Virus record (IMG/VR): IMGVR_UViG_3300037598_000161
Span: 1 to 21,144 of that record
Length of the DNA stretch: 21,144 bases
Direction: 5' to 3' (one strand)
From: a virus
Position 1 is the first letter of the stretch; every line of letters begins with the position of its first letter. Below, piece after piece: positions 5,677 to 21,144 of the stretch. The notes under the pieces were generated by a model, which saw only the letters and a list, made by a program, of their open reading frames with translations, made no database searches and was not told the DNA's origin. Position numbers and translations under genes: made by a program.

Positions 5677-5677
5677 C

Positions 5678-6852: not shown

Positions 6853-6885
6853 TTTAAAATCCTCTCTCTATTCTGTTCTGGTTGA

Positions 6886-7020: not shown

Positions 7021-7031
7021 GATATAACTCC

Positions 7032-7193
7032 TTAATAGATTGAATGAATAATACAGAACTGATTAAGTTCACGAATGCTTAGAGACATCTCATCAACAGT
7101 CCAATAGGTGGATCTGCGTTCACTTCTAAGCTCACCGTGCCAGTGGTAGCCAAGCTCATATGCTTCAGCTTGGCTCAAACCTTCAAGATACAT
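7032..7193 (-). CDS. Hypothetical 53-aa protein
   Basis: MYLEGLSQAEAYELGYHWHG, then a polar region with RSERRSTYWTVDEMSLSIRE. The ATG at 7193 has AAAGGAG 5 nt upstream, and it begins 10 nt after the stop of the 97-aa gene upstream. The AEAYELGYHWHGE segment resembles small 'modulator-like' phage proteins, but this is not a firm family match. Confidence 0.68.
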   Translation of the reverse strand: MYLEGLSQAEAYELGYHWHGELRSERRSTYWTVDEMSLSIRELNQFCIIHSIY

Positions 7194-7203
7194 AACGACT
7201 CCT

Positions 7204-7497
7204 TTACTTAGTCCAATAGATAACTTGGCCAGAGATCTTCTTTAATACAACATGAACACTGATGTTACGACATTTGCCTTCATAACGATTGGCAGTCAAT
7301 GACTTAGTAAGGACATAAGATCCTTTACCAGTCTTGAGTGTGATTGAATCAATATCAATGTCACCACCAGGTGCTTCATTAACAACAACAGCAAACTTCT
7401 TATCAGCAGAGATGTATCCAACAACCTCTGCATTAATTTGAGCTGTTTCAGTTCGGGACTTCATACCTACGAGCTTTACATTTTTCTGGTTTGCCAT
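7204..7497 (-). CDS. Hypothetical 97-aa protein
   Basis: MANQKNVKLVGMKSRTETAQ, then alternating beta-like segments (VVGYISADKKFAVVVNEAPG, VHVVLKKISGQVIYWTK). The ATG at 7497 has AAAGGAG 6-7 nt upstream. It has its own hairpin promoter candidate (7541-7566) and is the first gene of the leftward cassette that runs to the 235-aa gene. A small all-beta fold is suggested; the function is unknown. Confidence 0.75.
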   Translation of the reverse strand: MANQKNVKLVGMKSRTETAQINAEVVGYISADKKFAVVVNEAPGGDIDIDSITLKTGKGSYVLTKSLTANRYEGKCRNISVHVVLKKISGQVIYWTK

Positions 7498-7540
7498 GAG
7501 TGGCTCCTTTGAAATTTGAGATTAAGGGATACCAAGGATA

Positions 7541-7566
7541 TCCCCTTTATCAAGGCAGTATGCCTT
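7541..7566 (-). promoter_or_regulatory. Conserved hairpin promoter candidate upstream of the 97-aa gene
   Basis: TCCCCTTTATC flank (7541-7551) plus AAGGCA-GTA-TGCCTT, a perfect 6-bp stem with 3-nt loop. Same motif as at 5651 and 8081, here 5 nt after the NADAR gene stop and 54 nt before the next gene's start. No T tract follows in the leftward direction (GATAAAGGGGAT), so it is not an intrinsic terminator. Confidence 0.7.
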
Positions 7567-7571
7567 CTCAC

Positions 7572-8027
7572 CTAACGTATGCTTACTGTTAGTAAGTCAT
7601 ACCTTACTTGCATTAGTAACTTACCTAATGTGTTTAATTTAGGTTTACAAGCACACTTAGGGCAGTTACAAGCACCCCAATAGTTGTCATGCCAGTAGTT
7701 ACCTTCAACAAGCTTAGTATTACCAGTGGCCAACAACAGTTTACCCATTTCAAGGTTCTTAGTAAACTTTAGCCGGAGGATACGAAGCATTGTACGGTCT
7801 TTTATATCATTCCAATCGGAACGAAGGGTAACACTCCTACCCAGGTATTTAGCTTTACCTGGAGTAGCAGCCAACCTGATCTGTTCTTGTTGAACAGGGT
7901 CATTAGTCTTACAGGCCATATACATATGCTCCGAAGTCTTCCAAAGCTTATCCTTAACAATTATGTTAATGTAAGCAAAGTTAGATAGGAAACTGAACTC
8001 ATCTTTAAACATTGTAATACTATTCAT
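7572..8027 (-). CDS. NADAR-domain protein (YbiA-like N-glycosidase family)
   Basis: 151 aa spanning a complete NADAR/DUF1768 domain. FSFLSNFAYINIIVKDKLWK and TSEHMYMACK give the N-terminal signature. TPGKAKYLGRSVTLRSDWND and LATGNTKLVEGNYWHDNYWG give the core with the typical catalytic region. NTLGKLLMQVR closes the domain. A CNCPKCACK insertion follows YWG and looks metal-binding. Family members hydrolyse N-glycosidic bonds (riboflavin-pathway intermediates, or ADP-ribosyl-guanine when paired with DarT-type toxins). In a phage early region a counter-defence role, reversing ADP-ribosylation, is attractive but inferred. The ATG at 8027 is preceded by AAAGGAGA; the hairpin promoter candidate at 8081-8106 lies 54 nt further up. 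Confidence 0.9.
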   Translation of the reverse strand: MNSITMFKDEFSFLSNFAYINIIVKDKLWKTSEHMYMACKTNDPVQQEQIRLAATPGKAKYLGRSVTLRSDWNDIKDRTMLRILRLKFTKNLEMGKLLLATGNTKLVEGNYWHDNYWGACNCPKCACKPKLNTLGKLLMQVRYDLLTVSIR

Positions 8028-8080
8028 ATTACTATCTCCTTTAGATGTATTAGTACTATTATAGAAGTATACAACATACT

Positions 8081-8106
8081 TCCCTTTATTAAGGCAGTAT
8101 GCCTTA
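8081..8106 (-). promoter_or_regulatory. Conserved hairpin promoter candidate upstream of the NADAR gene
   Basis: TCCCTTTAT flank then TAAGGCA-GTA-TGCCTTA, a 7-bp stem with 3-nt loop (8090-8106). Leftward reading downstream is ATAAAGGGAAG. It is about 210 bp beyond the terminator at 8316-8355, so it is not merely a read-through structure. Confidence 0.7.
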
Positions 8107-8315
8107 TTTAATATATAGTCATACTATCGGTTATAGATATAATAGAGATGGTATGTAGTTTGGTAGATATACAGTGAATAGCAGTACATTCTTGTTTAAG
8201 GATGATATAGTTATACATGTATAGTAGAGTATGAGTTTATGTAAGATAATCAATACACGCACACGTACGCGTATATAAGAGTCTTTATAATACTATCAAA
8301 TTTGTGTAATGTTGT
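8107..8315. other. Gene-free A+T-rich stretch with an alternating purine-pyrimidine tract
   Basis: No credible gene in this stretch. The notable part is 24 nt of strictly alternating pyrimidine-purine at 8254-8277, including the palindrome GTACGC/GCGTAC core. Such tracts can adopt Z-DNA, but nothing here shows it is functional. Confidence 0.4.
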
Positions 8316-8355
8316 GTATAAAACAACAAGCTCTACTACCCGAAGGCAGTAGAGC
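8316..8355 (-). terminator. Strong leftward terminator with UUCG loop after the first early gene
   Basis: Read leftward, GCTCTACTGCC-TTCG-GGTAGTAGAGC (11-bp stem with one G-U pair, arms 8355-8345 and 8340-8330) is followed by TTGTTGTTTT. It lies 6 nt after the stop of the gene at 8362-8601. Confidence 0.85.
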
Positions 8356-8361
8356 AAAGAG

Positions 8362-8601
8362 TTACTTCTCGGGAATGGACTTGGCTGCACGAGCAGCAAT
8401 GCGGTCAGCGAGGTCGAGGCGTTTGATGGATGCGTCATTAATGGAGGTGTCCTTAATGATGGCCGTTTGAGCTTGGGCTGCTACTACGAGGTCGTCGACT
8501 ACCATCACAGCAGTGGTGCATGTGGATATGGCTACGGTGAACATACCGAATAGGTCAGACATGTTAGACCAGAAGCCAGGCTTGGGTGTGGGAGTTGTCA
8601 T
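8362..8601 (-). CDS. Small membrane-associated early protein, 79 aa
   Basis: Starts MTTPTPKPGFWSNMSDLFGM. Residues about 17-42 (LFGMFTVAISTCTTAVMVVD followed by DLVVAA) form one weak transmembrane or amphipathic segment, and the C-terminal half is an Ala/Arg-rich helix. The ATG at 8601 has AAGGAT 6 nt upstream. It is the first gene of the leftward arm, with its own hairpin promoter candidate (8638-8659) and its own strong terminator, that is a stand-alone unit likely expressed first on infection. No family recognised. Confidence 0.8.
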   Translation of the reverse strand: MTTPTPKPGFWSNMSDLFGMFTVAISTCTTAVMVVDDLVVAAQAQTAIIKDTSINDASIKRLDLADRIAARAAKSIPEK

Positions 8602-8637
8602 GATGAGATCCTTAGTTATGGGATAGCTTGAGTGCTA

Positions 8638-8659
8638 CCATTGTCAAGGCGGTACGCCT
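8638..8659 (-). promoter_or_regulatory. Hairpin promoter candidate for the first early gene
   Basis: AGGCG-GTA-CGCCT (8647-8659), 5-bp stem with 3-nt loop. Relative to the other copies the base pair next to the loop is changed on both sides (A-T to G-C), a compensating change. The flank ACCATTGTC is a diverged form of CCCTTTATC. No gene lies upstream on this strand, which favours a promoter over an RNA-processing or termination role. Confidence 0.65.
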
Positions 8660-8744
8660 GTAGTTGTTTAGAAACGAGGTATGAAAAGTTACAGGTACCC
8701 GGGGGTAGTTTCGGAAATGAGGCTCTTGTGGAGCAGTACTGCCT

Positions 8745-8882
8745 TGATACTTAGGTGTGATGAAATCTGATACTGCGAATCACCCCACACTGATACTTAG
8801 ATGACATGTTTTCCCCAAACCTGCGAATGTAAATTCGCTCCTACACTCGTAGGTAGATGAGGTGTTTTCCAGTACTGCGAAA
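8745..8882. repeat. Three imperfect direct repeats in the divergent intergenic region
   Basis: Three related units end in CTGCGAA at 8773, 8821 and 8875. Two share TGATACTTAG (8745, 8791), and two share TAGATGANNTGTTTTCC (8798 and 8854). Spacing is about 48-55 bp. They lie between the early hairpin promoter and the rightward sigma70-like promoter, so they could be regulator-binding sites, an origin-like element, or part of the terminal repeat. Confidence 0.6.
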
Positions 8883-8924
8883 TCCCATATCCGGATTTCT
8901 GTAATCTGTCTTTCACCTTTTCCC

Positions 8925-8950
8925 TTGACAAGTTTTTCTAAATATATAAT
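8925..8950 (+). promoter_or_regulatory. Sigma70-like promoter for the rightward late arm
   Basis: A perfect TTGACA (8925-8930) and a perfect TATAAT (8945-8950), but only 14 bp apart; TAATAT at 8947-8952 gives a 16-bp spacing. The sequence around it is very A+T-rich. It points toward the gene at 9012. In N4 the late genes use host sigma70 RNA polymerase, which fits. Confidence 0.55.
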
Positions 8951-9011
8951 ATATGTAATTTTACAGTATGGGCGGTGGCTCATACCAACGTATAACAAAA
9001 TGAGGTGTATT

Positions 9012-9266
9012 ATGGATGCAGATCAACTAATAGACGATCTTGATGAAGAAGTAGAAGAGGTATCACCTGAGAAGGATGTGGTGGAACCTGTTATGAACTC
9101 CAATGATATTACACGCTCCCGCAAGATTGGTAAGGCAGAGCCTGGAGCCATTGCTTACAACTTTACCGGTGTTGATCCTGCCACTGGTAAGGACAGAACA
9201 GAGTCTATTGTGTATAACCGGGATAAGGGTGTAGTTGGGATCAATGATAAGGGAGTGTTGAGGTAA
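9012..9266 (+). CDS. Hypothetical 84-aa acidic protein
   Basis: First gene of the rightward arm. It begins MDADQLIDDLDEEVEEVSPE, a highly acidic N-terminus, followed by a more balanced C-terminal half (KAEPGAIAYNFTGVDPATGK and YNRDKGVVGINDKGVLR). The ATG at 9012 has GAGGTG 4-5 nt upstream and was preferred to the in-frame ATG at 9000. It is followed by an intrinsic terminator, so it is a one-gene unit. No family recognised. Confidence 0.75.
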   Translation: MDADQLIDDLDEEVEEVSPEKDVVEPVMNSNDITRSRKIGKAEPGAIAYNFTGVDPATGKDRTESIVYNRDKGVVGINDKGVLR

Positions 9267-9300
9267 CTCTTCTACTTTATTTACTTGGTTCAATGTTGAT

Positions 9301-9346
9301 AAGCCCAGTGACTCCCTCTTAGGGTAATGGTCACTGGGTTTTCTTT
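9301..9346 (+). terminator. Intrinsic terminator after the 84-aa gene
   Basis: CCCAGTGAC (9304-9312) pairs perfectly with GTCACTGGG (9330-9338), extended by A-T pairs outside, and is followed by TTTTCTTTT. It separates the 84-aa gene from the tRNA unit. Confidence 0.85.
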
Positions 9347-9401
9347 TGGTTCCTCTCCCGTGCCCTCTCCTTTATGTAAAACCGATAGGTTACCTTTATG
9401 C

Positions 9402-9430
9402 TTGACAAGGATTTGTAAGTTGTGTAGGCT
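9402..9430 (+). promoter_or_regulatory. Sigma70-like promoter upstream of the tRNA genes
   Basis: TTGACA at 9402-9407 and TAGGCT at 9425-9430 with a 17-bp spacer. The -10 box keeps only the first two and last consensus bases. Its position after a terminator and about 67 bp before the tRNA-Met makes it a credible tRNA/late promoter. Confidence 0.45.
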
Positions 9431-9441
9431 TGTTTCATTTA

Positions 9442-9486
9442 TCAGGGGTCGATTATGGAAGGCTGCGATACCAGCATCCCTGACCA
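9442..9486 (+). other. Short tRNA-like fold ending in CCA (45 nt)
   Basis: TCAGGGG (9442-9448) pairs with TCCCTGA (9477-9483), directly followed by CCA. Inside is a second stem GCTG/CAGC. It resembles a tRNA acceptor stem with one arm, but it has no D arm, no anticodon arm and no TTC loop. Possibly a degraded tRNA; it could also be chance. Confidence 0.25.
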
Positions 9487-9496
9487 AATAGTATGT

Positions 9497-9571
9497 TGCG
9501 GAATAGAGTATTGGTAACTCAGGTGTCTCATAAGCACCGACATGGCAGTTCGAATCTGCCTTCCGCAACCA
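9497..9571 (+). tRNA. tRNA-Met (anticodon CAT)
   Basis: Complete cloverleaf. Acceptor TGCGGAA/TTCCGCA with discriminator A and encoded CCA; D stem GAGT/ACTC with GG in the loop; anticodon stem GGTGT/GCACC with loop CTCATAA; 5-nt variable region; T stem GGCAG/CTGCC with loop TTCGAAT. The lack of initiator features (the first acceptor pair is formed) indicates an elongator Met tRNA. A CAT anticodon could also be modified to read the Ile codon AUA. Confidence 0.92.
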
Positions 9572-9580
9572 ATAACTGAT

Positions 9581-9653
9581 GTGAGGGTAGCTTACTGGTG
9601 AAAGCGCAGGGTCGTGGCCCCTGAGATAGAGTTCAATCCTCTCCCTCACCCCA
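9581..9653 (+). tRNA. tRNA-His (anticodon GTG), atypical
   Basis: Acceptor GTGAGGG/CCCTCAC is perfect, with discriminator C and encoded CCA; C at this position is typical of tRNA-His. D stem GCTT/AAGC with GG in the loop. Anticodon stem CAGGG/CCCTG with loop TCGTGGC, so the anticodon is GTG. Two oddities: the nearly universal T at position 33 is C, and the T stem has only 4 pairs (AGAG/CTCT, loop TTCAATC). The base before the acceptor is T, so the extra G(-1) of His tRNA is not encoded. Confidence 0.75.
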
Positions 9654-9681
9654 TTTTAATCTTTATCCAGGAGATAGATCT

Positions 9682-10152
9682 ATGAACACATTCATTGGAG
9701 TTAAACTTGTTGATACTGAACCCATGACCCGAGGTGAGTATAACACTTACCGTGGTTGGGCGTTGCCGGCTGATGAGAATGGCGATGATCTTGGTTACTT
9801 AGTTGTATACGGTTCTGGTTATGAGTCTTGGTGTCCTAAAGATGAATTTGATAAACAGAATTTCCCTATTGTAGGTGAGAAGAATATCATATGCCAGGAT
9901 GATGTTGATAATTTCATTGGTTCAACTACTGTCAATACACTCAATATTGGTGGAGCCCCTAAGAGTACTTTGGTTAGTGTTATTCTGAAGAATGGTTTTG
10001 TGATGCATGAGACAAGCCCTTGTGTGGACCCAGCTAATTATGATGAGCAGGTGGGTGCTGATATCTGTGTGAAGAGGATTAAGGATAAGGTATGGGGTTA
10101 TTTGGGTTTTATGCTGCAATGTGGGGTAAGCGGTTTTAAGGGGGTGAAGTGA
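9682..10152 (+). CDS. Gp49 family protein (N4 gp49 / Sf6 gp66 family)
   Basis: 156 aa. The C-terminal part (VSVILKNGFVMHETSPCVDP, then ANYDEQVGADICVKRIKDKV) is the Phage_gp49_66 domain. The N-terminal ~65 residues (FIGVKLVDTEPMTRGEYNTY and GYLVVYGSGYESWCPKDEFD) form a separate module often fused to it in tailed phages. The function of the family is not established. The ATG at 9682 follows AGGAGATAGATCT. It leads a tightly packed rightward operon that runs into the terminase genes. The family name fits the N4-like reading of the window. Confidence 0.88.
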   Translation: MNTFIGVKLVDTEPMTRGEYNTYRGWALPADENGDDLGYLVVYGSGYESWCPKDEFDKQNFPIVGEKNIICQDDVDNFIGSTTVNTLNIGGAPKSTLVSVILKNGFVMHETSPCVDPANYDEQVGADICVKRIKDKVWGYLGFMLQCGVSGFKGVK

Positions 10153-10373
10153 TGAATAAAGACACACCCTATCACTTATCTAATTTGGGGATAGCTCCCA
10201 TCATGAAGTTCTTTGCTTACGAGCATCTCCCAGAAAAGTTACAGAAGATCAGTCAACCCATTTGTGATATCGCCCGGGAGTATGAAAAGAGTATTTCTGA
10301 TAGTGCAGAGAAGAGTGCCGGACTTCGTAAGTTATTGGAAGCCAAAGATTGTTTAGTGAGGGCAGCATTATGA
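10152..10373 (+). CDS. Small helical phage protein, possible relative of Acb2/Tad1-hairpin proteins
   Basis: 73 aa starting MNKDTPYHLSNLGIAPIMKF, with FFAYEHLPEKLQKISQPICD and AEKSAGLRKLLEAKDCLVRA, predicted as two long helices. Small proteins with this 'F.YEHLP..LQ' start and 'LRKLLEAKDAxVRAAL' end are widespread in phages. I associate them with the two-helix hairpin fold of Acb2/Tad1, proteins that sequester cyclic nucleotide signals in anti-phage defence. This link is from memory of the pattern and not proven. The ATG at 10152 overlaps the previous stop by 1 nt (GTG at 10149 is possible). Confidence 0.75.
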   Translation: MNKDTPYHLSNLGIAPIMKFFAYEHLPEKLQKISQPICDIAREYEKSISDSAEKSAGLRKLLEAKDCLVRAAL

Positions 10374-10744
10374 AAGATAATATGGATGGTGGGTATATAA
10401 GCCGCAACTTCAATAAAGAGGTTGGTGAAGTAATCAAACCAGTAAGGAGAGATTCTATGAAGTCTTTAGGTAATACGGATGTGAATGGTGCAAAGAAGAA
10501 TGTAAAAGATATCGTGGTCTTTGGTGACGGAGATCTGTTCCAGCTCCTATCTAAGGCTTCCAGCGAGAACGAGGGCTGGATGAAAAGTACTAAGGCCATG
10601 GATGTTGGAGTGGGTTGTGTAATTCAGGTTACCACTCAGCAGAGGAACACTGATCTAACTTATTCGGTGGCTGAGGCTTTGACCTTTGTACCCGGGGTGA
10701 GGATTAAGTCCAATGCAGCAGGTAGAAAACTGGTGCCGATATGA
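10370..10744 (+). CDS. Hypothetical 124-aa protein
   Basis: The N-terminal third is polar (MKDNMDGGYISRNFNKEVGE). The C-terminal ~75 residues form one conserved-looking unit (IVVFGDGDLFQLLSKASSEN, EGWMKSTKAMDVGVGCVIQV, AEALTFVPGVRI). I have a sense of this unit from other phages next to Gp49-family genes, but no function is known to me. The ATG at 10370 overlaps the previous gene by 4 nt (ATGA) and has GTGAGGG upstream; an in-frame TTG at 10349 is less likely. Confidence 0.75.
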   Translation: MKDNMDGGYISRNFNKEVGEVIKPVRRDSMKSLGNTDVNGAKKNVKDIVVFGDGDLFQLLSKASSENEGWMKSTKAMDVGVGCVIQVTTQQRNTDLTYSVAEALTFVPGVRIKSNAAGRKLVPI

Positions 10745-11367
10745 AGCATAATATGTGTGAGACATGCGGCCGTAATAACGACATATTTCCTGCAGTTACT
10801 TGTGGTATGGAGCCTTATGGTGATGAGATTGTCCGTACGTTTTGTACTGGGTACCGTACAGTATGGGAATGGGCTGAATACACGGCAGCTAAGAAAGATG
10901 CTTATGAGAAGGAGGTGTTGCTGTACAGGAGAAAGAGGCGTATTGCAGCCCGAGCCCATAAGCGTAAAATAAACCATGACTCCAACCTGTGTAAGACATG
11001 TGCCAATAATCTTGATACATTTCCTTCGGTTCATTGCAGGAGGCATCCTTATCCTGGTGAGGAAAACTACCAGGATAAGTGTGGTGACTACCATAAGACC
11101 ACCCCTGGGGAGTTGATGGTGTTTATCAAGTTTCCTTGTGGGACAGAGAGGGTATTGGACTGGAAGCCAGACGATTACAAAGGGCCATTTGGCTTTACTC
11201 GGTGTGGTGATAGCAGAGCTATAAAAGCATCTTTGATTGGGACTACGCTAATAGATAAAGAGACGTTATTTGCTGCATACAAGTTCCTTGATCAAGCAAT
11301 GCACCCACTTAATCGTAAAATTTTCATGAATGCCCCTGTAAAAGAGGCTATGAAAGGTTATATATGA
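10741..11367 (+). CDS. Two Cys4-module protein, putative zinc-binding (208 aa)
   Basis: Contains two copies of one module: CETCGRNNDIFPAVTC (residues 6-21), then a cysteine 14 residues later; and CKTCANNLDTFPSVHC (around 84-99), then a cysteine 15 residues later. The pattern is C-x2-C-x11-C-x13/14-C followed by an aromatic residue. A lysine/arginine-rich linker (LYRRKRRIAARAHKRKINHD) separates them. The C-terminal ~95 residues are unrelated. A third copy of the module forms the core of the next gene, so it has multiplied here. Metal binding is inferred from the cysteines. The start overlaps the previous stop (ATGA). Confidence 0.75.
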   Translation: MKHNMCETCGRNNDIFPAVTCGMEPYGDEIVRTFCTGYRTVWEWAEYTAAKKDAYEKEVLLYRRKRRIAARAHKRKINHDSNLCKTCANNLDTFPSVHCRRHPYPGEENYQDKCGDYHKTTPGELMVFIKFPCGTERVLDWKPDDYKGPFGFTRCGDSRAIKASLIGTTLIDKETLFAAYKFLDQAMHPLNRKIFMNAPVKEAMKGYI

Positions 11368-11684
11368 AACCAATGACTAAGAAGACGATCCCTGAACCAA
11401 AAAAAGAATCCAGTATCTGTATGTGCTGTGCTTTGAATAGTGCCGATTATCCTGGAATTTGTTGTAAGCAAGATCCTTTTGGTGAAGGTACTGATGTGTT
11501 AAAGTGTAGTGATTACCTGACTGAGATAGAACAAGAGGATGGGATGCGTCATTACTACAAGCACTACGATATTTACAAGAAGATCGGTAAATTAAATCAT
11601 CAAATTTGGTTGCTTAACCGTGAGATTACATTAAAAGATCGGGAGGATGCCAAAAATGAAACCAATGACAGAGGAAGAGTTTAA
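11364..11684 (+). CDS. Single Cys4-module protein (106 aa)
   Basis: Residues about 19-34 (CMCCALNSADYPGICC) and a cysteine 14 residues later repeat the module seen twice in the preceding protein, with FGEGTDVLKCSDY closing it. The C-terminal half is helical and charged (YKHYDIYKKIGKLNHQIWLL). The ATG overlaps the previous stop (ATGA). Its first 14 bases are identical to the first 14 bases of the next gene. Function unknown. Confidence 0.75.
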   Translation: MKPMTKKTIPEPKKESSICMCCALNSADYPGICCKQDPFGEGTDVLKCSDYLTEIEQEDGMRHYYKHYDIYKKIGKLNHQIWLLNREITLKDREDAKNETNDRGRV

Positions 11685-12336
11685 AGAAGCCCTGCCTGTG
11701 GAATTTAAGAAGTCAGTGAACCCTACATTGATGAACCAGATTAATGGGATTTTAGCTGATCCGGAGACAATGCAGTATTTCAGGGAAAATTTGTTGAGTT
11801 ATACCGGTGTAATGAAGGAAGGCCGGTTTAAGACCAGTTCTTATGTGAGTGCCATCAAATATGTGAGTTTTAAGCTCTTTGGTGCTTCTAACAAGGACGC
11901 TTACGCAAAGACTTTTCCTGAGAAGATGGTTTATTACAAGAAACAGGGTACATCGTCCAAGGATATTGCCAGTTACTCTACTGCGTATAATAAGACCAAG
12001 TTGGTAAATTTGATTATGGCTCAGAGTATGATCCCGGTCCATATATTGAATGCCCCAATGTTTCAGGCTGCCTTAAACGTACAGGCAGGGTTGATGATGA
12101 CAGCGTATTCCGAGAAGGTTAGGAGTGATGCTGCAGATAGTGTGTTAAAGCACCTTAAACCTCCTGAGATTAAGGCTGCTGTGGAGCTGAATGTTGAAAC
12201 CAAACAGGATAAGACCCTTGATATACTTAGGGATACAGTCGGAGCCTTGGTAGCACAGCAAAAAGCAAATATCCGGAGTGGAGGTGCGACAGCTAAGACC
12301 ATTGCTGAGGGGGTACTCGTTGTCAACAGCAATTAG
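11656..12336 (+). CDS. gp69-like protein, putative small terminase / packaging partner
   Basis: 226 aa from the ATG at 11656, chosen because GGGAGG lies 9 nt upstream; the ATG at 11647 touches that site. The protein is rich in helix-forming segments (NPTLMNQINGILADPETMQY, MVYYKKQGTSSKDIASYSTA, AYNKTKLVNLIMAQSMIPVH) and ends with a likely coiled region. It lies directly before, and overlaps, the large terminase, the place of gp69 in N4-like phages, and is therefore a candidate small terminase subunit. No helix-turn-helix is obvious, so the role is inference. Confidence 0.78.
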   Translation: MKPMTEEEFKEALPVEFKKSVNPTLMNQINGILADPETMQYFRENLLSYTGVMKEGRFKTSSYVSAIKYVSFKLFGASNKDAYAKTFPEKMVYYKKQGTSSKDIASYSTAYNKTKLVNLIMAQSMIPVHILNAPMFQAALNVQAGLMMTAYSEKVRSDAADSVLKHLKPPEIKAAVELNVETKQDKTLDILRDTVGALVAQQKANIRSGGATAKTIAEGVLVVNSN

Positions 12337-13966
12337 AGATGAGATAGCTGCGGTGGTTGAAGAGGTACTGCAGGAGTCCCTGGGTCTTGACAAGAAAGGT
12401 GTGGAGGATTGGCTGAAAGATGTCAATTATGAGGATGATCCCGACTACATGCCTTCTGACTTTGCTTTGGAGTTTGTCAATTTTATTAAGTTGGTAAACG
12501 GTGAGGATGGGGAGGAGAATGTGACCCCGGTAATTCATTACAAGATGCTTGACAACATTCAGTATAACGACAAAGATACAATCAATATGTGTCACAGAGG
12601 TGTTGCGAAAACAACAGTGCTCGGTACTTACATGATTCTGTATTGTGCAGTGTATGGTGACATCCCGGGCTTTGGTAAAGTACCTTATGTCCTATATGTG
12701 TCAGATGCGGTGGAAAACGGTATTAAGAAGATGAGGAAGGATTTAGAATTCCGGTGGGATAATTCCTCCTTTCTTCAGGAATGGTTACCGTATAAACGAC
12801 TTACTGATGTGCGGTGGGAGTTTGCAAATAAGGATGGTGTACCCTTTGTTTGTACCGGGCACGGTGCCAAGACGGGAGTGAGAGGAACAAGAGAATTGGG
12901 GACAAGGCCATTGCTTGCAATACTTGATGATCTAATTTCTGATGATGATGCCCGATCACCAACGGTTATAGCCTCTGTTGAAGACACTGTTTACAAGGCT
13001 GTTGATTATGCCCTCCATCCTGCCCGTAGAAAGATCATTTGGAGTGGTACACCGTTTAACGCTCGGGACCCTCTATACAAAGCAGTTGAGTCTGGGGCCT
13101 GGCATGTAAATGTGTATCCGATTTGTGAGAAGTTCCCTTGTGCTAAGAAAGACTTTAGGGGTTCCTGGGAGAACCGCTTCTCGTTTGAGTATGTTCAGAA
13201 GCAGTATACCAAGGCCATGCTGTCCCATAAGATTGACACCTTCAACCAGGAGCTGATGTTGAGGATCATGTCAGAAGAAGATCGCTTAATTACCGATGAT
13301 GAGATTCTTTGGTATGGTCGGGACTTGTTGATCCAAAATAAAGATGCGTACAACTTCTACATTACTACCGACTTTGCAACCAGTGAGAAACAGGCAGCCG
13401 ACTTCTCGGTAATATTCGTTTGGGCCTACAATGCAAAGGGTCAGTGGTTTTGGGTAGATGGTGTTTGTAAGAAGCAGACCATGGATCATACTATGAATGA
13501 CCTGTTTCGGTTGGCCCAGAAGTGGGACCCTCAGCAAGTAGGCATCGAGATCAGTGGTCAACAGCAAGCATTTATTCCTTGGATCCAAGATCAAATGATG
13601 ATAAGAAAGTGCTGGTTTAATCTTGCTAAAGATAAAGACCAGACCAAACCTGGTATCAGGCCGAACACAGATAAGATGAAGAGATTTAATATTGTTGTTC
13701 CTTGGTTCAAGTCTGGTATGATATTCTTCCCCAGGGAAATGCAGTTGATGCCAATCATGGGCGAGACTGTGGATGAGTTATCCCTGATTTCACTTAAGGG
13801 AATGAAGAGTAGGAACGATGATACCAATGACTGTGTGTCAATGTTGGCCAACTTAACACCCTGGCGACCAAGTGAACACTTACCCCCTGAAGAAGGAGGT
13901 GAAAATATTTGGGAGACAGAAGCAATAAAGAGTGATATAAGTGGGATTGACTCGTACACCCCTTAA
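12320..13966 (+). CDS. Large terminase subunit (N4 gp68-like)
   Basis: Packaging motor ATPase and nuclease, 548 aa from the chosen start. Walker A-like CHRGVAKTT at residues 91-99, Walker B LLAILDDLI at 198-206 and coupling motif SGTPF at 242-246 make up the ATPase. The C-terminal nuclease starts at FYITTDFATS (D351), with IEISGQQQAF and a late Asp pair in RNDDTNDC. GTG codons at 12278 and 12284 are in frame. I prefer TTG at 12320 because GAGGGGG ends 6 nt before it, though 12284 (CGGAG upstream) is possible. It overlaps the gp69-like gene. Confidence 0.92.
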   Translation: MSTAIRDEIAAVVEEVLQESLGLDKKGVEDWLKDVNYEDDPDYMPSDFALEFVNFIKLVNGEDGEENVTPVIHYKMLDNIQYNDKDTINMCHRGVAKTTVLGTYMILYCAVYGDIPGFGKVPYVLYVSDAVENGIKKMRKDLEFRWDNSSFLQEWLPYKRLTDVRWEFANKDGVPFVCTGHGAKTGVRGTRELGTRPLLAILDDLISDDDARSPTVIASVEDTVYKAVDYALHPARRKIIWSGTPFNARDPLYKAVESGAWHVNVYPICEKFPCAKKDFRGSWENRFSFEYVQKQYTKAMLSHKIDTFNQELMLRIMSEEDRLITDDEILWYGRDLLIQNKDAYNFYITTDFATSEKQAADFSVIFVWAYNAKGQWFWVDGVCKKQTMDHTMNDLFRLAQKWDPQQVGIEISGQQQAFIPWIQDQMMIRKCWFNLAKDKDQTKPGIRPNTDKMKRFNIVVPWFKSGMIFFPREMQLMPIMGETVDELSLISLKGMKSRNDDTNDCVSMLANLTPWRPSEHLPPEEGGENIWETEAIKSDISGIDSYTP

Positions 13967-13978
13967 AAGGAAAAGAAT

Positions 13979-14716
13979 ATGGTCTTACAGGATTTGTTTG
14001 ATGAACTGGCAACCGGGGAGTTCTCCAATTTAGCTATTGGGAATTCTATTAATGGTTCAATTGAGCCTGACGCTTATAAAAAAGTGGTAACACAGGTTAA
14101 CGCTGGTTTACGGGAACTCTATAAGAGGTTCCTGTTAAAAGACAAAATCTGCTATATTACCCGCCCAACGGGTACAACCAATTACTTTCTACGGGATGTA
14201 AATGTGGTTGCCTCTTTTGGTGATGCGCCCACAGCAGAGACACCCATTACAGTTAGTGTGGAGTCAATAACTGAGAAACCAACTGTTTCCGATCTATGCC
14301 GGGTGATAGATGTATTTGGTGATGGTATTGATGAAACGACTGTCTACCTGAATGACAATAGACGACCTGATGGCGTATTCACCCATGGGCATGATCACAT
14401 TAGCATAAAGAATCCTCTACCTGTTGTACTGGGTGTCGTTTATCAGGCCTATTACCCCAGGATTATTCTTACCGAACTTTTTGATCCAGAAACATACAAC
14501 CTGTATTATCCTGAATACCTTTCCTATGCTCTTAAGTGTTATGTGGCCTCGGAGTTGTTCACGGGTAAAACGTCTAAGGCTACCGAGGGTGAAGCGCAGA
14601 TTTATAATACCTTTCATGGTAAGTTTGAAAAAGCTTGCAAGCTCATTGAAGACAGGGGCTTTGCAGAAGAGGTCAATACTGAGGATACCAAATTTGAAGA
14701 TGGAGGTTGGGCATAA
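13979..14716 (+). CDS. gp67-like virion protein, head-tail connector candidate
   Basis: 245 aa, starting MVLQDLFDELATGEFSNLAI. The N-terminal helical part (DAYKKVVTQVNAGLRELYKR) and a later helix pair (YPEYLSYALKCYVASELFTG, YNTFHGKFEKACKLIEDRGF) flank a beta-rich centre. This layout is shared with head-tail connector proteins such as T7 gp11, a resemblance judged by eye only. It follows the large terminase by 12 nt with AAAGGAAAAG before the ATG, matching the gp68-gp67 order of N4. Confidence 0.75.
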   Translation: MVLQDLFDELATGEFSNLAIGNSINGSIEPDAYKKVVTQVNAGLRELYKRFLLKDKICYITRPTGTTNYFLRDVNVVASFGDAPTAETPITVSVESITEKPTVSDLCRVIDVFGDGIDETTVYLNDNRRPDGVFTHGHDHISIKNPLPVVLGVVYQAYYPRIILTELFDPETYNLYYPEYLSYALKCYVASELFTGKTSKATEGEAQIYNTFHGKFEKACKLIEDRGFAEEVNTEDTKFEDGGWA

Positions 14717-15111
14717 TGATCCCTGGAAAATACGATATAACCATTTATAAGGGGGGTACTTTTTCAGTATCATTTACCTCTGAGAACAAGTTGGGTGTGC
14801 CTATGAATTTTGATGTCTATGATGAGATCCGGATGCAGATCCGGCCAACATGGGCAAAGATACCATATACTGGAGAGCCTTTGATGGACTTCACTGTGGC
14901 GAATGGTAGGATTGTCAGACCTGCAGATGGGCTGTCTCTGGGATTGAACATTGACGAAGCTGATACTACATTGATTAACTTTAAAGATGGTAAGTACGGA
15001 CTGGAGTTGATCAAGAATATTGATCTTTTGGCTAATCCCCCTATCCCTGTACGAATTGTAGATAAGTTTTTCGTTGGTTTGGTTGCTGTTCAGGAGGAGG
15101 TGATTGCATGA
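14716..15111 (+). CDS. Small beta-rich virion protein upstream of fibres (131 aa)
   Basis: MIPGKYDITIYKGGTFSVSF starts a pattern common to phage proteins placed next to fibre/baseplate genes: a 'kGgtf' N-terminus, then DVYDEIRMQIRPTW, a hydrophobic LSLGLNIDEADTTLINFKDG segment and a closing GLVAVQEEV strand (BppU N-terminal-like). The ATG overlaps the previous stop by 1 nt (TAATG) with GGAGG 9 nt upstream. Role as an adaptor or appendage component is inferred from context. Confidence 0.75.
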   Translation: MIPGKYDITIYKGGTFSVSFTSENKLGVPMNFDVYDEIRMQIRPTWAKIPYTGEPLMDFTVANGRIVRPADGLSLGLNIDEADTTLINFKDGKYGLELIKNIDLLANPPIPVRIVDKFFVGLVAVQEEVIA

Positions 15112-16910
15112 CTGATCAAATTGTAGTTGTAGAGGCTGATGCCTCAGAGGTATTTGTTGATACTGGTACTCCTGTAACAACCATTGTAGATAATACAACT
15201 GGTTTAAGTACTGTGGTGGATGCTTCACCCATTCAGACAATTATATCAGATGAACGTCCTAATGTTGTTGTGCGTTCTGGTAGTGGTGGCCATATGGATC
15301 TTACATCTATTATGACCATGCTGACTGGGCGTTTAACCCCTGGCCATATGGACCCGAATCTGTATCAAGACCTTAATATGCTTCGTGATCTTTGGGTGAG
15401 GATAGGGAACGACCTGCTATTAACTTATCCAGATGGTGTGATTATTCAGGAAGCTGGTAGATCCTACACAACACAAGCAATTACAGATACAGTTAATAGT
15501 ATTAATGTAACGATTGGTGGGGCAGTCTCAGCCAATACCTCACTAATCCAACAGACTGCCGTGGCAATTACCCAATCAGTAAATAGCCTTGAATTAGCTG
15601 TAAATGGTGATTTGGCTGTACATGATTCCAGGATTACTCAAACAGCTACCGACATTAACCAAACAGTCACTGCTTTAGTGAGCACGGATGGCTTGGTTGC
15701 CAAAGCTCAATCAGATATTCTACAAAGTGCTGATCAAATTGCTTTAGGTGTTACAAAACAAATTGAGGCTGATTGGGTAATTGCCACTGTTGGATCAAGA
15801 GTTACTATAACAGAAGACACCATTAACCAAACAGTCATTGATTTAGCGAGCACGAGTGGGTTGGTTACTTTAGCCCAATCAGACATCATTCAACAGGCTG
15901 CGAGCATAGCCCTCGGTGTTACAAAAGCTGTTGAGCAAGACGGTGCTATCGCCACTGTCGGATCAAGGGTCACTATAACAGAAGACACCATTAGCTCTGC
16001 CGTGACAGCTTTTGACAATACAACCAGTCGTGTGACAGCAGCCGAGATCGCCATCAATGAGACATCGGTTACCTTATCGGCCAGCAGCCAGTACCTTACA
16101 CAGAAGATAGAGACTGTACAGACGTTATTGGATAATCAGTGGGGTGTGACTATTGGGGAGGATGTTAATGGTAACTCCTATGTTGCTGGTTTTAGCTTAT
16201 TACTTCACCCCGCATGGGTATTAACTGAAGGTTATGCTGTAGGGGATACCGTTTACTTTCTTTCTAATGGCGTTGAAAGAGCCTATGTATGTATTCTTAC
16301 AAATATTGGGGATATTACCAATTCTCCTGTCAATACCCTCTACTGGACTGAAGTCCCGGGCAGTGCGAAATCCATCTTTACAGTCAGTGCTGAGCAGTTC
16401 CAGGTTACTGGTCCCGATGGTAATCCCGTACCTTTATTCTTGGTAGATGGTGTGACAAATGTTGTCACCATTAATGGGGCTCTTGTTGTTAAACTTATTA
16501 AGTCAGATGGTTTTGATTCCGGTATCGGCGCAGGGTTTAATCTGGATCCAACTACAGGTATTGCTGAGTTCCGTAATATGGTAATGACTTTTTCTTCTGT
16601 TCCTGAAAAGGTAGCAGTACAGACGGCTTTGGGTGTTATACCAGAACTCTTTGTATGGGAAGGGGTTGAGCCACTAAATAGTGGTACGGGTATACTCGGT
16701 GCTGATGAATGGACTTTTGATGGTGGTAAAGAGGGAGGAGTCCTCATACAGATTGAGGTGACTGATGATTTTGTTGGGGAACTTGATGTGGCTTTAAATG
16801 GCGAGATACTGACAATGGTTTACTGGGATAGTGGGTCTATACTGGATGATGTTGAAGGTATTATTGACTTAACACAGGCGGGCGAAAACATAGATTTTGG
16901 GGGTATATAA
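15108..16910 (+). CDS. Tail appendage/fibre protein with 56-aa repeats and a carbohydrate-binding module
   Basis: 600 aa. After an N-terminal acidic beta region, residues about 183-294 contain two nearly identical 56-aa repeats (INQTV..., ending RVTITEDT), predicted as a trimeric fibre shaft of the lambda gpJ kind. Residues about 366-418 (WVLTEGYAVGDTVYF, YWTEVPG) match the CBM5/12 chitin-binding pattern of spaced aromatic residues. SIFTVSAEQFQVTGPDG at about 421 is the DUF1983-type domain found at the end of gpJ-like proteins. The ATG overlaps the previous stop (ATGA) with AGGAGG upstream. It probably binds a host-surface glycan. Confidence 0.85.
   Translation: MTDQIVVVEADASEVFVDTGTPVTTIVDNTTGLSTVVDASPIQTIISDERPNVVVRSGSGGHMDLTSIMTMLTGRLTPGHMDPNLYQDLNMLRDLWVRIGNDLLLTYPDGVIIQEAGRSYTTQAITDTVNSINVTIGGAVSANTSLIQQTAVAITQSVNSLELAVNGDLAVHDSRITQTATDINQTVTALVSTDGLVAKAQSDILQSADQIALGVTKQIEADWVIATVGSRVTITEDTINQTVIDLASTSGLVTLAQSDIIQQAASIALGVTKAVEQDGAIATVGSRVTITEDTISSAVTAFDNTTSRVTAAEIAINETSVTLSASSQYLTQKIETVQTLLDNQWGVTIGEDVNGNSYVAGFSLLLHPAWVLTEGYAVGDTVYFLSNGVERAYVCILTNIGDITNSPVNTLYWTEVPGSAKSIFTVSAEQFQVTGPDGNPVPLFLVDGVTNVVTINGALVVKLIKSDGFDSGIGAGFNLDPTTGIAEFRNMVMTFSSVPEKVAVQTALGVIPELFVWEGVEPLNSGTGILGADEWTFDGGKEGGVLIQIEVTDDFVGELDVALNGEILTMVYWDSGSILDDVEGIIDLTQAGENIDFGGI
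15654..15989 (+). repeat. 168-bp tandem repeat within the fibre gene
   Basis: Two complete 168-bp copies (15654-15821 and 15822-15989), each coding 56 aa, with the start of a third (ATTAGC at 15990). The protein copies share IALGVTK and IATVGSRVTITEDT; DNA identity is high over the last ~45 bp, suggesting recent duplication. Confidence 0.85.
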
Positions 16911-16913
16911 ATA

Positions 16914-18596
16914 ATGACTGTGAATAAAAAAGGGACTGCTTTACAGTTCCGATTTGGTACCACTGCAGAACATGCAGCCTTCACAGGGTTGGATAGAGAA
17001 CTCACGGTTGATACGACCAAAAAGGTCACTATTGTTCATGATGGTCTCACACCTGGGGGTGTGCCCCAGGCCAGAGAAGACCATACACATTCCGGTATGG
17101 AGGTGGTTGTAACAAATGATCAGAGAATCCTTGGTCGGGTATCGGGAGCCCTGGGTCCAGCAGAAGAATTGACAGCTACCCAGGTCCGTACATTAGTCAA
17201 TGTGGAAAACGGTTCTGAAGCAAACAATATTTCGGATGCAAATGTCTTAGACTTAACCGATGCCGGGGATTCAGCTCTGCATTATCATTCAACAGATCGT
17301 AGTAGGGCAAACCACACAGGGACTCAAACTGCAAATACTATATCCGATTTTGATACAGCGGTTGGGGTCCTTGTTCCGGCTGGCACAACTGGGGATATCG
17401 GTAATCCCATATACCAATTACCCCTCAACAATTCATTAACACCACTGACCGGTGAAGGCTCTGTCACTCTTAACCGCAATGGATCTGCAACCCATATAGA
17501 CCGTTACGGTGTGGTGAAAGATTTATTAGCTGGTCAACCTGGGTTCGATGTTGATGGAGTTGATTTGCCTCCTGGGAGTACTAATATTTGTTTGCATTCT
17601 CAGGATTTTAGTAATGTTGCTTGGACCAAAACCGGAGCCACTGTTACCTCAAACGCAACCAATGCTCCTGATGGGACTTTGACTGCTGACAATCTTGTAG
17701 TAGACAACACTTTAGGGGAGCACAGGATAACTATAAGTGGCTCTACAAACTTAAATCAAGTACATACTTGTAGTATTTTTGTTAAAGGGACAGGGACAGA
17801 TATGAATATTAGAGTGCTTATCGGCAACTCCACGTTTTCAGGGGTGGTGTCATGTACTTTTGAGCAAACTAATGGGGTATTTACCGCAGCAAGTACTTAT
17901 GTAGTCGTAGGCAATGGTATTGCTGGTGATCCACCAACTATTACTCCTATGGGGGGCGGCATATACAGGCTAACCCTATCAGGTGTACCGGAATCAACTC
18001 TCGGAGCTGGCACATTCTCCGTTAGACTTAATTTACAAAAACCAGGGGGGGGAGCCAATTACCAAGGTGATGGCGTATCTAGCTTATATATTTGGGGCGC
18101 CCAATTAGAACAACTCCCATTCGCAACACCCTACATACCCACAACCACAGCACCAGTAGCAAGACTCGGAGCAATAGTAACATTCCCATATGCTGAGAAC
18201 TTTCCTGGGAGCCTCAAGGATAAGACAGTTGTTTTTGATGTTAATGTGGTTGGGACGAGTTGGTCTTTTGCCAAGGCATTTTATTCCGGTGATTTACGAA
18301 TGCTTGTAAGTTGGGCCAGTGCTGATAACGATACCCGGGTGTATATGGCAGTTGACTCTGATACAGGTGTCATCGTTAAAACAGGGGCTTTTAGGTTTGG
18401 TATGACATATAGTGTATCTACAACAACTCTTAGGATGTATCACGACGGCGTATTAGTCGCAGAAGATACAACAGCTACGGCAGCACATGCAGCATTAACC
18501 CTGATAACCATTGGTCATTCAGGAGCATACCTAAAAATCAAAAATCTAAGAATTTACGATAAGACATTAACAGAAAACCAAATGAGGATATTATAA
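16914..18596 (+). CDS. Tail fibre with lectin-like C-terminal domain
   Basis: 560 aa. The N-terminus (LQFRFGTTAEHAAFTGLDRE, VTIVHDG) is the short attachment module common at the start of phage fibres (Mtd_N-like). HYHSTDRSRANHTGTQTANT at about 122-141 is a typical fibre-shaft repeat. From about 225 to the end there are beta-sandwich, concanavalin/CBM-like segments (ICLHSQDFSNVAWTKTGATV, LYIWGAQLEQLPFATPYIPT, then VVFDVNVV to IKNLRIYDKTL). These are receptor-binding modules. The Shine-Dalgarno is weak (GGGGG 10 nt upstream). The last 24 bases of the gene are one copy of the repeat described at 18574-18597. Confidence 0.85.
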   Translation: MTVNKKGTALQFRFGTTAEHAAFTGLDRELTVDTTKKVTIVHDGLTPGGVPQAREDHTHSGMEVVVTNDQRILGRVSGALGPAEELTATQVRTLVNVENGSEANNISDANVLDLTDAGDSALHYHSTDRSRANHTGTQTANTISDFDTAVGVLVPAGTTGDIGNPIYQLPLNNSLTPLTGEGSVTLNRNGSATHIDRYGVVKDLLAGQPGFDVDGVDLPPGSTNICLHSQDFSNVAWTKTGATVTSNATNAPDGTLTADNLVVDNTLGEHRITISGSTNLNQVHTCSIFVKGTGTDMNIRVLIGNSTFSGVVSCTFEQTNGVFTAASTYVVVGNGIAGDPPTITPMGGGIYRLTLSGVPESTLGAGTFSVRLNLQKPGGGANYQGDGVSSLYIWGAQLEQLPFATPYIPTTTAPVARLGAIVTFPYAENFPGSLKDKTVVFDVNVVGTSWSFAKAFYSGDLRMLVSWASADNDTRVYMAVDSDTGVIVKTGAFRFGMTYSVSTTTLRMYHDGVLVAEDTTATAAHAALTLITIGHSGAYLKIKNLRIYDKTLTENQMRIL

Positions 18597-18597
18597 T
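18574..18597 (+). repeat. 24-bp direct repeat, copy 1 (copy 2 at 19521-19544)
   Basis: A perfect 24-bp sequence, starting AAAACCAAATGAGG and ending ATTATAAT, occurs at 18574-18597 and again at 19521-19544. It contains the end of the fibre reading frame (NQMRIL-stop) and the ribosome site for the next gene. The two copies bracket the lipoprotein gene. Confidence 0.95.
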
Positions 18598-19486
18598 GAA
18601 ACACTGGGCTTACATAATACTGATGTGCTTGGTATTTACTGGGTGCAATGACAGATCTGACTCCATAACTGCTAATATTCTCAATGACATAATTGATAAC
18701 TCCCCTACAGGTATCATTAACAATGATGTCATTGAGGTACGCCTATCAAACAGTGGTAGCATAGCGTACATAGCAGAGATAGGGGGCGAGAATTTAATCG
18801 ATAATCAGGATCTTGGCAGACAGATACAGCCATCATTTTATGCTGGTGAAGATCAGATCCACCAGGATCAACATAATGAATGGAGCCCATGGCCTTGGAA
18901 CATTATACAGTCTGGCGATGTATATGGCAATGAGTCCATTATCATAGATCAAATAGAGACTGACACTACAAGCATAACCACAGTAACACCAATGCTTTGG
19001 GATAGAATTAATGTACCAGAAGATGAGGCTGTTATCACCAATGATATAGAATTAATTGCTAACACAATAAAAGTCATTGTTAAGCTACAATTAACTAATG
19101 ACTGTGTGATTATTAATCCACAACCAAGGCATCAAGAGATGCCAGCTATTTACACAGTAGGAAGTTTAAATAATCTAATATCAGGTGACAACATTATAAA
19201 GAACTCCGATAACAAATGGGTGTATTGGAGTGATGAGGAGTGGGCAGGAGCTTTTGATGATGATGGTTATGGTATTGCAGTGTACAATCCAAATACTGAA
19301 TTATTTATTGGTGGGAGGTACGAAAGTGGTGCAGACAAAACAACATATTTTTCCCCGCTATGTACATTAACTATTAAGCCTGGAGATGAATGGGAGTACA
19401 CTTATTGGCTGATCATAGGAACAATACAAGAAGTTAAGGACGCAATTTTGGGAATACAGGCAGGAGAGGTAATTAACAATGCATAG
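18596..19486 (+). CDS. Lipoprotein, inserted cargo (moron-like) gene
   Basis: 296 aa. MKHWAYIILMCLVFTGCNDR is a type II signal peptide with lipobox FTGC and acylated Cys17; Asn at +2 favours the outer membrane if the host is Gram-negative. The mature protein is beta-rich, Asn/Ile-rich, with GGENLIDNQDLGRQIQPSFY and WSPWPWNIIQSGDVYG, a W/Q pattern seen in carbohydrate-active or carbohydrate-binding beta proteins, though no family is certain. The gene is bracketed by 24-bp repeats and overlaps the fibre stop by 1 nt. It could mask the receptor or alter the cell surface. A lipoprotein is unusual amid virion fibre genes. Confidence 0.82.
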   Translation: MKHWAYIILMCLVFTGCNDRSDSITANILNDIIDNSPTGIINNDVIEVRLSNSGSIAYIAEIGGENLIDNQDLGRQIQPSFYAGEDQIHQDQHNEWSPWPWNIIQSGDVYGNESIIIDQIETDTTSITTVTPMLWDRINVPEDEAVITNDIELIANTIKVIVKLQLTNDCVIINPQPRHQEMPAIYTVGSLNNLISGDNIIKNSDNKWVYWSDEEWAGAFDDDGYGIAVYNPNTELFIGGRYESGADKTTYFSPLCTLTIKPGDEWEYTYWLIIGTIQEVKDAILGIQAGEVINNA

Positions 19487-19520
19487 TTTAGCTGGATTAA
19501 GTACTACACAAATGAAACAA

Positions 19521-19544
19521 AAAACCAAATGAGGATATTATAAT
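19521..19544 (+). repeat. 24-bp direct repeat, copy 2 (copy 1 at 18574-18597)
   Basis: Identical to copy 1. It lies in the 59-bp gap after the lipoprotein gene and supplies the GAGG ribosome site for the gene at 19546. It still spells the end of the fibre frame, although the fibre gene is no longer attached to it. Confidence 0.95.
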
Positions 19545-19545
19545 T

Positions 19546-19920
19546 ATGAACACCTACACAGACGTTATTACACATTGTACAGACACACCAGCATTAGTAG
19601 CAGAACTGTTGGAGAAATTCCCTACACGAATCAATATAGATGACCCTGATAACCCAATCTTCTTGATTGACAAATCTCAAGGAACCATTAAAAAGGGCAC
19701 AGAAACACTTGTACTTGCGAGACTTAGTGGCCAAGACCTTACGGACATCAAGACACTTACGAGCTTAACGGTCTTGGGAACGTACGAAGAGGTTTTCGCT
19801 GATCCAGACAAGACCTTAATTTATGACCGAGTATATGATCAAACTCCGATTGATTTTGATGATGGAGAGGGTGGAGTGATGACATATACACCACCCCGTA
19901 AATTCGTTGTTTTCGCATAA
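19546..19920 (+). CDS. Hypothetical 124-aa protein between fibre genes
   Basis: MNTYTDVITHCTDTPALVAE, then PTRINIDDPDNPIFLIDKSQ and ends RKFVVFA. Compact alpha/beta-looking sequence, no membrane segment. Its ribosome site lies in the second 24-bp repeat. Placement between two fibre genes suggests a virion accessory protein or a fibre assembly chaperone, but no family is recognised. Confidence 0.75.
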   Translation: MNTYTDVITHCTDTPALVAELLEKFPTRINIDDPDNPIFLIDKSQGTIKKGTETLVLARLSGQDLTDIKTLTSLTVLGTYEEVFADPDKTLIYDRVYDQTPIDFDDGEGGVMTYTPPRKFVVFA

Positions 19921-19938
19921 CAGAAGTAGGGGAGTGGT

Positions 19939-21144
19939 ATGACAAAGTTGATTACCGTATTTGCACACAACCTGCAACCAACAGGGAATGTTCTTCAAGT
20001 GTGGCCCAGGGGTACTACTTCTGCGTCTGTGGTAAGGGTTGCTGTTTACAGTTCTGAAGAAGCAGGCCAAATAACTCGTTTAGATGATATGCCGGGTACT
20101 TTAGGATCGGTTGTCACTCCGGCCCATGCAGCAAATGTTCTGGCTGTCATTACTTCCGGAGCATATGCAGACGGGATTGTTACATTGGAGGAGGAGAGGG
20201 CTATTGCAGATGCCTCAGCAAAGGCTGATGCAGCAGAAGCAGCAGCTAATTTACATACCGAGGGTTGGTCTGATGAGGGTGCAACGGTAGGTACAACCGC
20301 TGCGGAGTCTCTTATCCTTACTAATGCTGCTGAAGATGCTGCAAACGCCAAAACACACCTTGACCAGTGGGCATCGGACGGAATATTTTCTTCCATTGAA
20401 AAGAGAAATTTTAGAGTCGGGTGGGTCATTCGCTGCACAGAGTACATTGACCTAAAGGCTCAGGCCATAGCATTGGGGTTATCTACAGTGACTTTTGTGG
20501 CTGCATTTGACACCTGGGGAACCTATATAAACGCCGGGGGTGCTTGGGATCCTCCCACAACTACTCCGATCACTGACGCTATGTTGCCCCTGTGGATAAA
20601 AGATGCGAATTTAGCAACAGATCAAGCCGTCACTCGGACAGCTTTTAATTCTGCTGCAGCAACCTATTTTGACGCTTTAGTTGCAATTAAAACAGCCATT
20701 GCCGATAAAATAAATAGTAATACAACAACAGCAGCACTGACGGCGACATGGCCAGGGGTGAGTGGCGATGGTAAGCCTGCTGATGGTGCCGATGTAACAG
20801 CAAATAATAAGCAAGGAGTATCTTGGCTAACTGATGCTGGGGCACTCGCAACAAAAAACGCTGTCGATTTGGCGACTACAGATGTCGCCAATAAGACGCT
20901 TGACAATATTAATGATGGGGTAACTTACGCCCGTGTGCTCAATGCCGACATTACCGCAGGGCATATTTTATTGTCATCTTGTACAGGGTCGCTTGACAAT
21001 ATTGCCAATGGAACCACTTATGGTAGGGTAAATGTTACAGCTATATCAGCGGGTAATATTTTACTCTCTTCTTGTACAGGCGATTTAGACGATATAGCCA
21101 ATGGAATTTACGGTAAGGTTCTGACCACAGCTATATCAGCAGGG
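19939..21144 (+). CDS. Tail fibre/appendage protein, N-terminal 402 aa (cut by window edge)
   Basis: Open frame from ATG 19939 (GGGGAG 5 nt upstream) to the end of the window. It starts MTKLITVFAHNLQPTGNVLQ, a short beta module resembling the start of baseplate/fibre proteins. It then has an Ala/Glu-rich helical stretch (VTLEEERAIADASAKADAAE), a SDGIFSSIEKRNFRVGW segment, and ends with three 31-aa repeats (LDNIxxGxTYxRV, ISAGxILLSSCTG). These features are typical of long gpJ-like or appendage proteins. The true length is unknown. Confidence 0.82.
   Translation, partial: MTKLITVFAHNLQPTGNVLQVWPRGTTSASVVRVAVYSSEEAGQITRLDDMPGTLGSVVTPAHAANVLAVITSGAYADGIVTLEEERAIADASAKADAAEAAANLHTEGWSDEGATVGTTAAESLILTNAAEDAANAKTHLDQWASDGIFSSIEKRNFRVGWVIRCTEYIDLKAQAIALGLSTVTFVAAFDTWGTYINAGGAWDPPTTTPITDAMLPLWIKDANLATDQAVTRTAFNSAAATYFDALVAIKTAIADKINSNTTTAALTATWPGVSGDGKPADGADVTANNKQGVSWLTDAGALATKNAVDLATTDVANKTLDNINDGVTYARVLNADITAGHILLSSCTGSLDNIANGTTYGRVNVTAISAGNILLSSCTGDLDDIANGIYGKVLTTAISAG
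20899..21144 (+). repeat. 93-bp tandem repeats at the end of the partial fibre gene
   Basis: Units start at 20899, 20992 and 21085 with a 93-bp period (31 aa); the third has lost one codon and is cut by the window edge. The shared protein unit is LDNI..G.TY.RV...ISAG.ILLSSCTG. Confidence 0.85.

Follow-up and report, generated by a model that had tools for sequence, protein, structure and literature searches.

Phage morons are extra genes that lie between conserved structural genes, differ in GC content, are absent from relatives and leave their neighbours unharmed. Classical morons have their own promoter and terminator, and some inserted genes that have neither are also known. Llp and Cor, by comparison, are small lipoproteins. 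The genes for the exclusion lipoproteins of T5 and its coliphage relatives follow immediately after the receptor-binding genes, and their products block the receptor, so that phages are also kept from being wasted on debris (PMC9586334); judging from the title of reference 22 in that paper, T5 llp is expressed early. A third point of comparison is offered by diversity-generating retroelements (DGRs) at receptor-binding loci, as in the Bordetella phage Mtd; such elements have previously been tallied in N4-like viruses (PMC10654107).

The locus described here shares features with all three. It is found in a fragment of an uncultured N4-like (Schitoviridae) phage, which makes up the whole of one IMG/VR record and is referred to as the window (the whole stretch of DNA analysed, 21,144 bases). 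The minus strand carries two N4-type RNA polymerase genes, and the window also encodes an N4 gp49-type protein and an N4-like terminase (PHROG 38, E 2.3e-89) that has about 60% identity with the terminases of cultured Schitoviridae-type phages. One RNA polymerase ORF (2495-3238, minus strand, 247 aa) aligns with just positions 2-240 of the PHROG 2051 model, which has 401 positions, and, based on this match, the gene may be truncated or interrupted. Just past its 3' end, between minus-strand early genes, is a homing-endonuclease-like ORF with NUMOD1 and NUMOD3 motifs (1197-2177, minus strand). A NADAR-domain protein with a possible role in counter-defence is encoded at 7572-8027 on the minus strand (PF08719, E 2.8e-27); the NADAR family is known for reversing ADP-ribosylation of DNA.

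Within the tail gene cluster, a gene for a candidate lipoprotein separates the receptor-binding fibre gene from a gene of 124 codons, and a short direct repeat stands on either side of it. The features are listed in Table 1.

Table 1 Features of the receptor-binding locus of the N4-like phage fragment.
Feature	Coordinates	Strand	Remarks
Window	1..21144		Whole IMG/VR record
Conserved tail gene	15108..16910	+	Upstream of the fibre gene; bounds the variable locus on its upper side; 66% identity with the closest relative
Receptor-binding tail fibre, 560 aa	16914..18596	+	Mtd_N N-terminal, GTA-type spike/fibre and LamG-like C-terminal domains
Repeat copy 1	18574..18597	+	Ends the fibre gene (final codons and stop) and supplies the ribosome site for the lipoprotein gene; 28/29 identical if extended to 18569
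Lipoprotein gene, probably inserted, 296 aa	18596..19486	+	Lipobox FTG-C, Cys17; ATG overlaps the fibre stop
Spacer	19487..19520	+	34 bp between the lipoprotein stop and copy 2
Repeat copy 2	19521..19544	+	Duplicates the fibre end but is non-coding; supplies the ribosome site for the 124-aa gene
124-aa gene	19546..19920	+	C-terminal half resembles the gene at the end of contig L002
Next tail-associated gene (start)	19939..21144	+	Also in the closest relative, with 44% identity across residues 1-117

The product of the fibre gene is matched by PF18454 (E 1.2e-9), by the tail protein family PHROG 5939 (1.4e-34) and by NF048003 (E 3.3e-39), and also by PF13385 with an E-value of 8.7e-4, a match that falls short of Pfam's own cutoff. 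The Pfam LamG match and two PHROG tail families extend to residues 556-558 of the 560, so that the codons in the first repeat copy are the authentic end of the fibre, as the first-pass annotation had proposed. A scan of IMG/VR with the fibre gave no match. Contig L002, which has the partial homologue of the 124-aa gene, also encodes Mu-like head proteins.

The same annotation had taken the gene between the repeats to encode a lipoprotein placed next to the receptor-binding fibre, and both points are supported. A lipobox, MKHWAYIILMCLVFTGC, is present in the 296-aa product by a pattern test, and the product is likely to be an envelope lipoprotein. The start codon overlaps the stop codon of the Mtd_N/LamG fibre as TAATG. 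The protein had no match in Pfam, PHROG, NCBIfam or PADLOC and none among the PDB sequences (Llp has a published structure, 8A60). Protein scans of IMG/VR did not find it either, and tblastn searches of phages and plasmids with the phage protein and its bacterial homologues came back empty.

The GC content of the gene is 38%, compared with 42-47% in its neighbours. Its codon usage is unremarkable (z 1.7), so the acquisition was not necessarily recent. Promoter-like and terminator-like sites at the gene are at chance level. The gene thus resembles the phage morons in its position between conserved structural genes, its different GC content, its absence from relatives and its unharmed neighbours, but differs from the classical ones in its coupling to the fibre stop and in having the duplicated junction on either side. 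Since inserted genes without their own promoter and terminator are known, the lack of these sites lowers only the claim to a classical moron. Near the start of the gene, in a linker region that is specific to the phage protein (window 18680-18736), there is a near-perfect 20-bp inverted repeat; the RNA of this region folds better than 199 of 200 shuffles (z -3.6).

The only relatives found are secreted, non-lipoprotein proteins in two Desulfovibrionales genomes, with approximately 40% identity over most of the length. One (L083) came from a single genome scan and the other (L086) from a survey of 348 Desulfovibrionales genomes (2 of 348 in total); broader draws from the phylum gave no further relatives. 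Both have ordinary signal peptides and no lipobox, and both genes (in L083, within 1-7000, and in L086) adjoin type I secretion ABC genes, a neighbourhood that is conserved and has no name. The phage protein differs from this unnamed bacterial family in its lipobox, its longer linker and the absence of two loops, and its gene is AT-rich. The motifs GRQIQ, WSPWPWN and PRHQEMPA are invariant between the phage and bacterial proteins, indicating that the protein is under constraint, and the conserved Trp-rich site probably binds a ligand or is catalytic. The 124-aa gene had no match among the Desulfovibrionales genomes, and the host of the phage is therefore not established as a member of that order.

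Comparison of a predicted structure with carbohydrate-binding folds had been suggested as a check. The AlphaFold models of the family were too poor to be usable, with a mean pLDDT of 37 from two sequences and 44 from three. A Foldseek search with the better model gave no match under E 0.001 and TM-scores near 0.2, with a weak trend towards galactose-mutarotase-like and glycosidase domains; for a galactose-mutarotase-like fold this is a hint only.

The analogy with T5 Llp that had been drawn for this gene is weak. Like Llp and Cor, the protein has a lipobox and is encoded directly downstream of a receptor-binding gene. By contrast, at 296 aa it is several times larger, it has no detectable sequence relation to them (PDB, Pfam and PHROG), and its kin are secreted bacterial proteins. 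Membership of the Llp/Cor group is rejected on size and absent homology, while position and lipobox fit. T5 llp is an early gene, whereas the gene described here lies in the late tail cluster of an N4-like podovirus. N4-like phages are reported to use surface glycans, for example NGR in the case of N4 (PMC12892993) or the host LPS (PMC13001222), and a sugar-binding or sugar-editing lipoprotein is thus a reasonable guess. By analogy, a role in receptor masking or exclusion is possible, if doubtful.

The cargo might instead be a periplasmic enzyme active on sugars, as its bacterial relatives may be, with a role in nutrition or the remodelling of the envelope and no part in adsorption. The Trp, Arg, His and Glu residues of the motifs conserved with the secreted bacterial proteins are consistent with such an activity, as is the weak Foldseek trend, while the place of the gene in the late tail cluster and its coupling to the fibre stop suggest a role in adsorption or release over one in metabolism. 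We regard a metabolic or remodelling role as conceivable without favouring it.

Part of the evidence for acquisition comes from the repeat. The 24-bp sequence AAAACCAAATGAGGATATTATAAT occurs, exactly and at the coordinates first reported, at the two sites in Table 1 and nowhere else in the window, where no further site was found with up to 3 mismatches (0 expected from shuffles); the repeat is accordingly not one that is common within the window, which would have spoken against a cassette. No exact direct repeat in the window is longer, and the longest repeats in 100 dinucleotide shuffles had a mean of 14 and a maximum of 18. Extending the comparison to 18569-18597 and 19516-19544 gives 28 of 29 matching bases, the one difference being a G in the fibre copy and an A in the detached copy. 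Outside these 29 bases, there is no similarity beyond chance, either upstream or downstream.

The repeat has two roles: it closes the fibre gene, and it forms a region for translation start. Copy 2 comes after the stop codon of the lipoprotein gene (19484-19486) and ahead of the 124-aa ATG at 19546. GAGG, within the repeat, precedes the ATG of the lipoprotein gene by 8 nt and that of the 124-aa gene by 11 nt, which suggests that the two genes use the same duplicated initiation region; the view that copy 2 is a detached fibre end now serving as ribosome site for the next gene is thereby upheld. Copy 2 holds fibre codons that have no coding use there, and this is the mark of a duplication, as a ribosome site that was merely selected would not need them. 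When one repeat and the insert are deleted on paper, the whole fibre gene is kept and the 124-aa ATG falls a few bases past the fibre stop. Insertion of the lipoprotein gene is likely. Precise excision, which had also been proposed, agrees with the paper junction in that both neighbours are left intact; excision and insertion as events are inferred, as no phage with the same fibre but no lipoprotein was found. No other phage with this fibre and 124-aa gene was found, and the exact 24-mer was in none of the other viral contigs of IMG/VR, so the direction of the event, insertion rather than the loss of something else, is read from a single genome.

The closest phage found is L003 (IMGVR_UViG_3300031603_000021), with a terminase that is 87% identical; a scan of IMG/VR with the upstream tail gene gave only this phage again. 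The upstream tail gene, the N-terminal 49 residues of the fibre and the beginning of the 19939 gene are common to L003 and the window, and everything between differs. Different modules thus stand between conserved genes and, based on these sequence comparisons, the receptor-binding module at this locus is swapped as a block between relatives. Neither the lipoprotein nor the 124-aa gene was found in the 28-kb record of L003. The comparison with related phages that had been called for therefore shows a closest relative without the lipoprotein, and it is not the case that all relatives carry it with unrelated flanks. At the same locus, L003 (7493-11833) has an intact DGR with two tandem Mtd_N proteins, bAvd and a reverse transcriptase. 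Its variable repeat (9989-10101) and template repeat (10554-10666) are 113 nt long and 565 bp apart, and all of their differences (24 of 24) are at template adenines. Since DGRs of N4-like viruses have already been counted, the L003 example is not new in kind. Mtd_N is present in the fibres of both phages, but a reverse transcriptase, Avd, a template repeat and a C-type lectin domain are all absent from the locus in the window.

Further genes were observed in other records. In the N4-like phage L020 (15870-20949; also in L017 and L019), CsgF and CsgG of the curli pore (Pfam E 1.4e-15 and 3.9e-48, respectively) are encoded downstream of the tail genes, together with a repeat-rich, curlin-like secreted protein, a FecR-domain protein and a CHASE2-cyclase; phage csgGF has been published for methylophages and pelagimyophages (PMC9004378). 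L081 (4303-6957) has an 884-aa terminase ORF with a LAGLIDADG-type insertion, probably an intein.

The main rival to insertion is that the repeats are the remnant of tandem fibres, an array of fibre, lipoprotein and second fibre having lost the second fibre save for its last 24-29 bp, in which case the lipoprotein gene was never inserted alone. The two tandem Mtd_N genes of L003 at this locus agree with such a history, as does the nature of copy 2 as a detached fibre end. In addition, the spacer in one frame reads LSTTQMK, which bears a weak likeness to LTENQMR at the end of the fibre (an equal score is reached by 1.4% of random segments of the window), and it is possible that the spacer is a relic of a second fibre end; the likeness is short, post hoc and was sought after being seen. 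Upstream of the 29 bp, however, there is no homology to the fibre, as 26% of random windows align equally well, and we consider loss of a second fibre unlikely.

Alternatively, selection for matched expression could have preserved the translation start region ahead of both genes, with no mobility of a cassette. Both ATGs are just past the repeat with GAGG at similar distances, as would be expected, but the other late genes in the window have different ribosome sites, and the 5' half of the repeat (AAAACCA) is superfluous for ribosome binding and codes for fibre residues in copy 1 only. Such a purely functional duplication appears improbable. Misassembly of the metagenome at a short shared word is very unlikely; a single record holds the junction, but the repeats are in register with working starts on both sides and, at 24 bp, are shorter than one read, so that reads should span them. 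That the fibre 3' end is a variable repeat and the detached copy a template repeat, as the intact DGR of L003 at exactly the same place and the single A (detached) to G (fibre) mismatch might suggest, is rejected as extremely improbable, because the similarity stops after 29 bp with upstream differences that are not limited to adenines, the fibre region of the window has no reverse transcriptase or Avd, and the fibre end is LamG-like and not C-type lectin-like.

The best explanation as a whole, which we hold tentatively as falling a little short of probable, is that an N4-like phage acquired segment 18574-19544 as a moron in its receptor-binding locus. The ancestor would have had a fibre-124-aa junction with a single copy of the repeat. 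The lipoprotein gene would have entered by recombination in this short repeat, duplicating the junction with no damage to either neighbour, and would have obtained a ribosome site linked to the stop of the fibre gene. Its source may have been the rare secreted-protein family seen in Desulfovibrionales, with the signal peptide replaced by a lipobox. The lipoprotein would then be made together with the fibre, be anchored in the envelope of the infected cell and possibly bind or edit the surface sugar that the fibre recognises. The outcome could be less superinfection or less loss of progeny on debris, as with T5 Llp for a protein receptor. In its most specific form, the proposal is that a captured secreted, probably sugar-active bacterial protein lets infected cells edit or mask the sugar bound by the fibre, which would be a kind of exclusion distinct from the transporter plugging of Llp and Cor, and that the repeats make the gene a swappable part of a locus otherwise able to hold a DGR; this we put forward as a speculation with little likelihood in all its parts.

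The repeat-flanked, probably acquired gene at this hypervariable receptor-binding locus is real; phage morons are a known kind of element, and the family of the cargo is uncharacterised. The locus is a concrete case of how a gene can be added between a fibre gene and the next gene, neither of which is harmed, by way of a duplicated sequence that is both gene end and start signal. It also presents two receptor-binding solutions in the same slot, one mutated by a retroelement, in L003, and one replaced whole, in the window. With one phage and two bacterial members, the uncharacterised protein family offers a candidate for the blocking of sugar receptors that can be put to the test.
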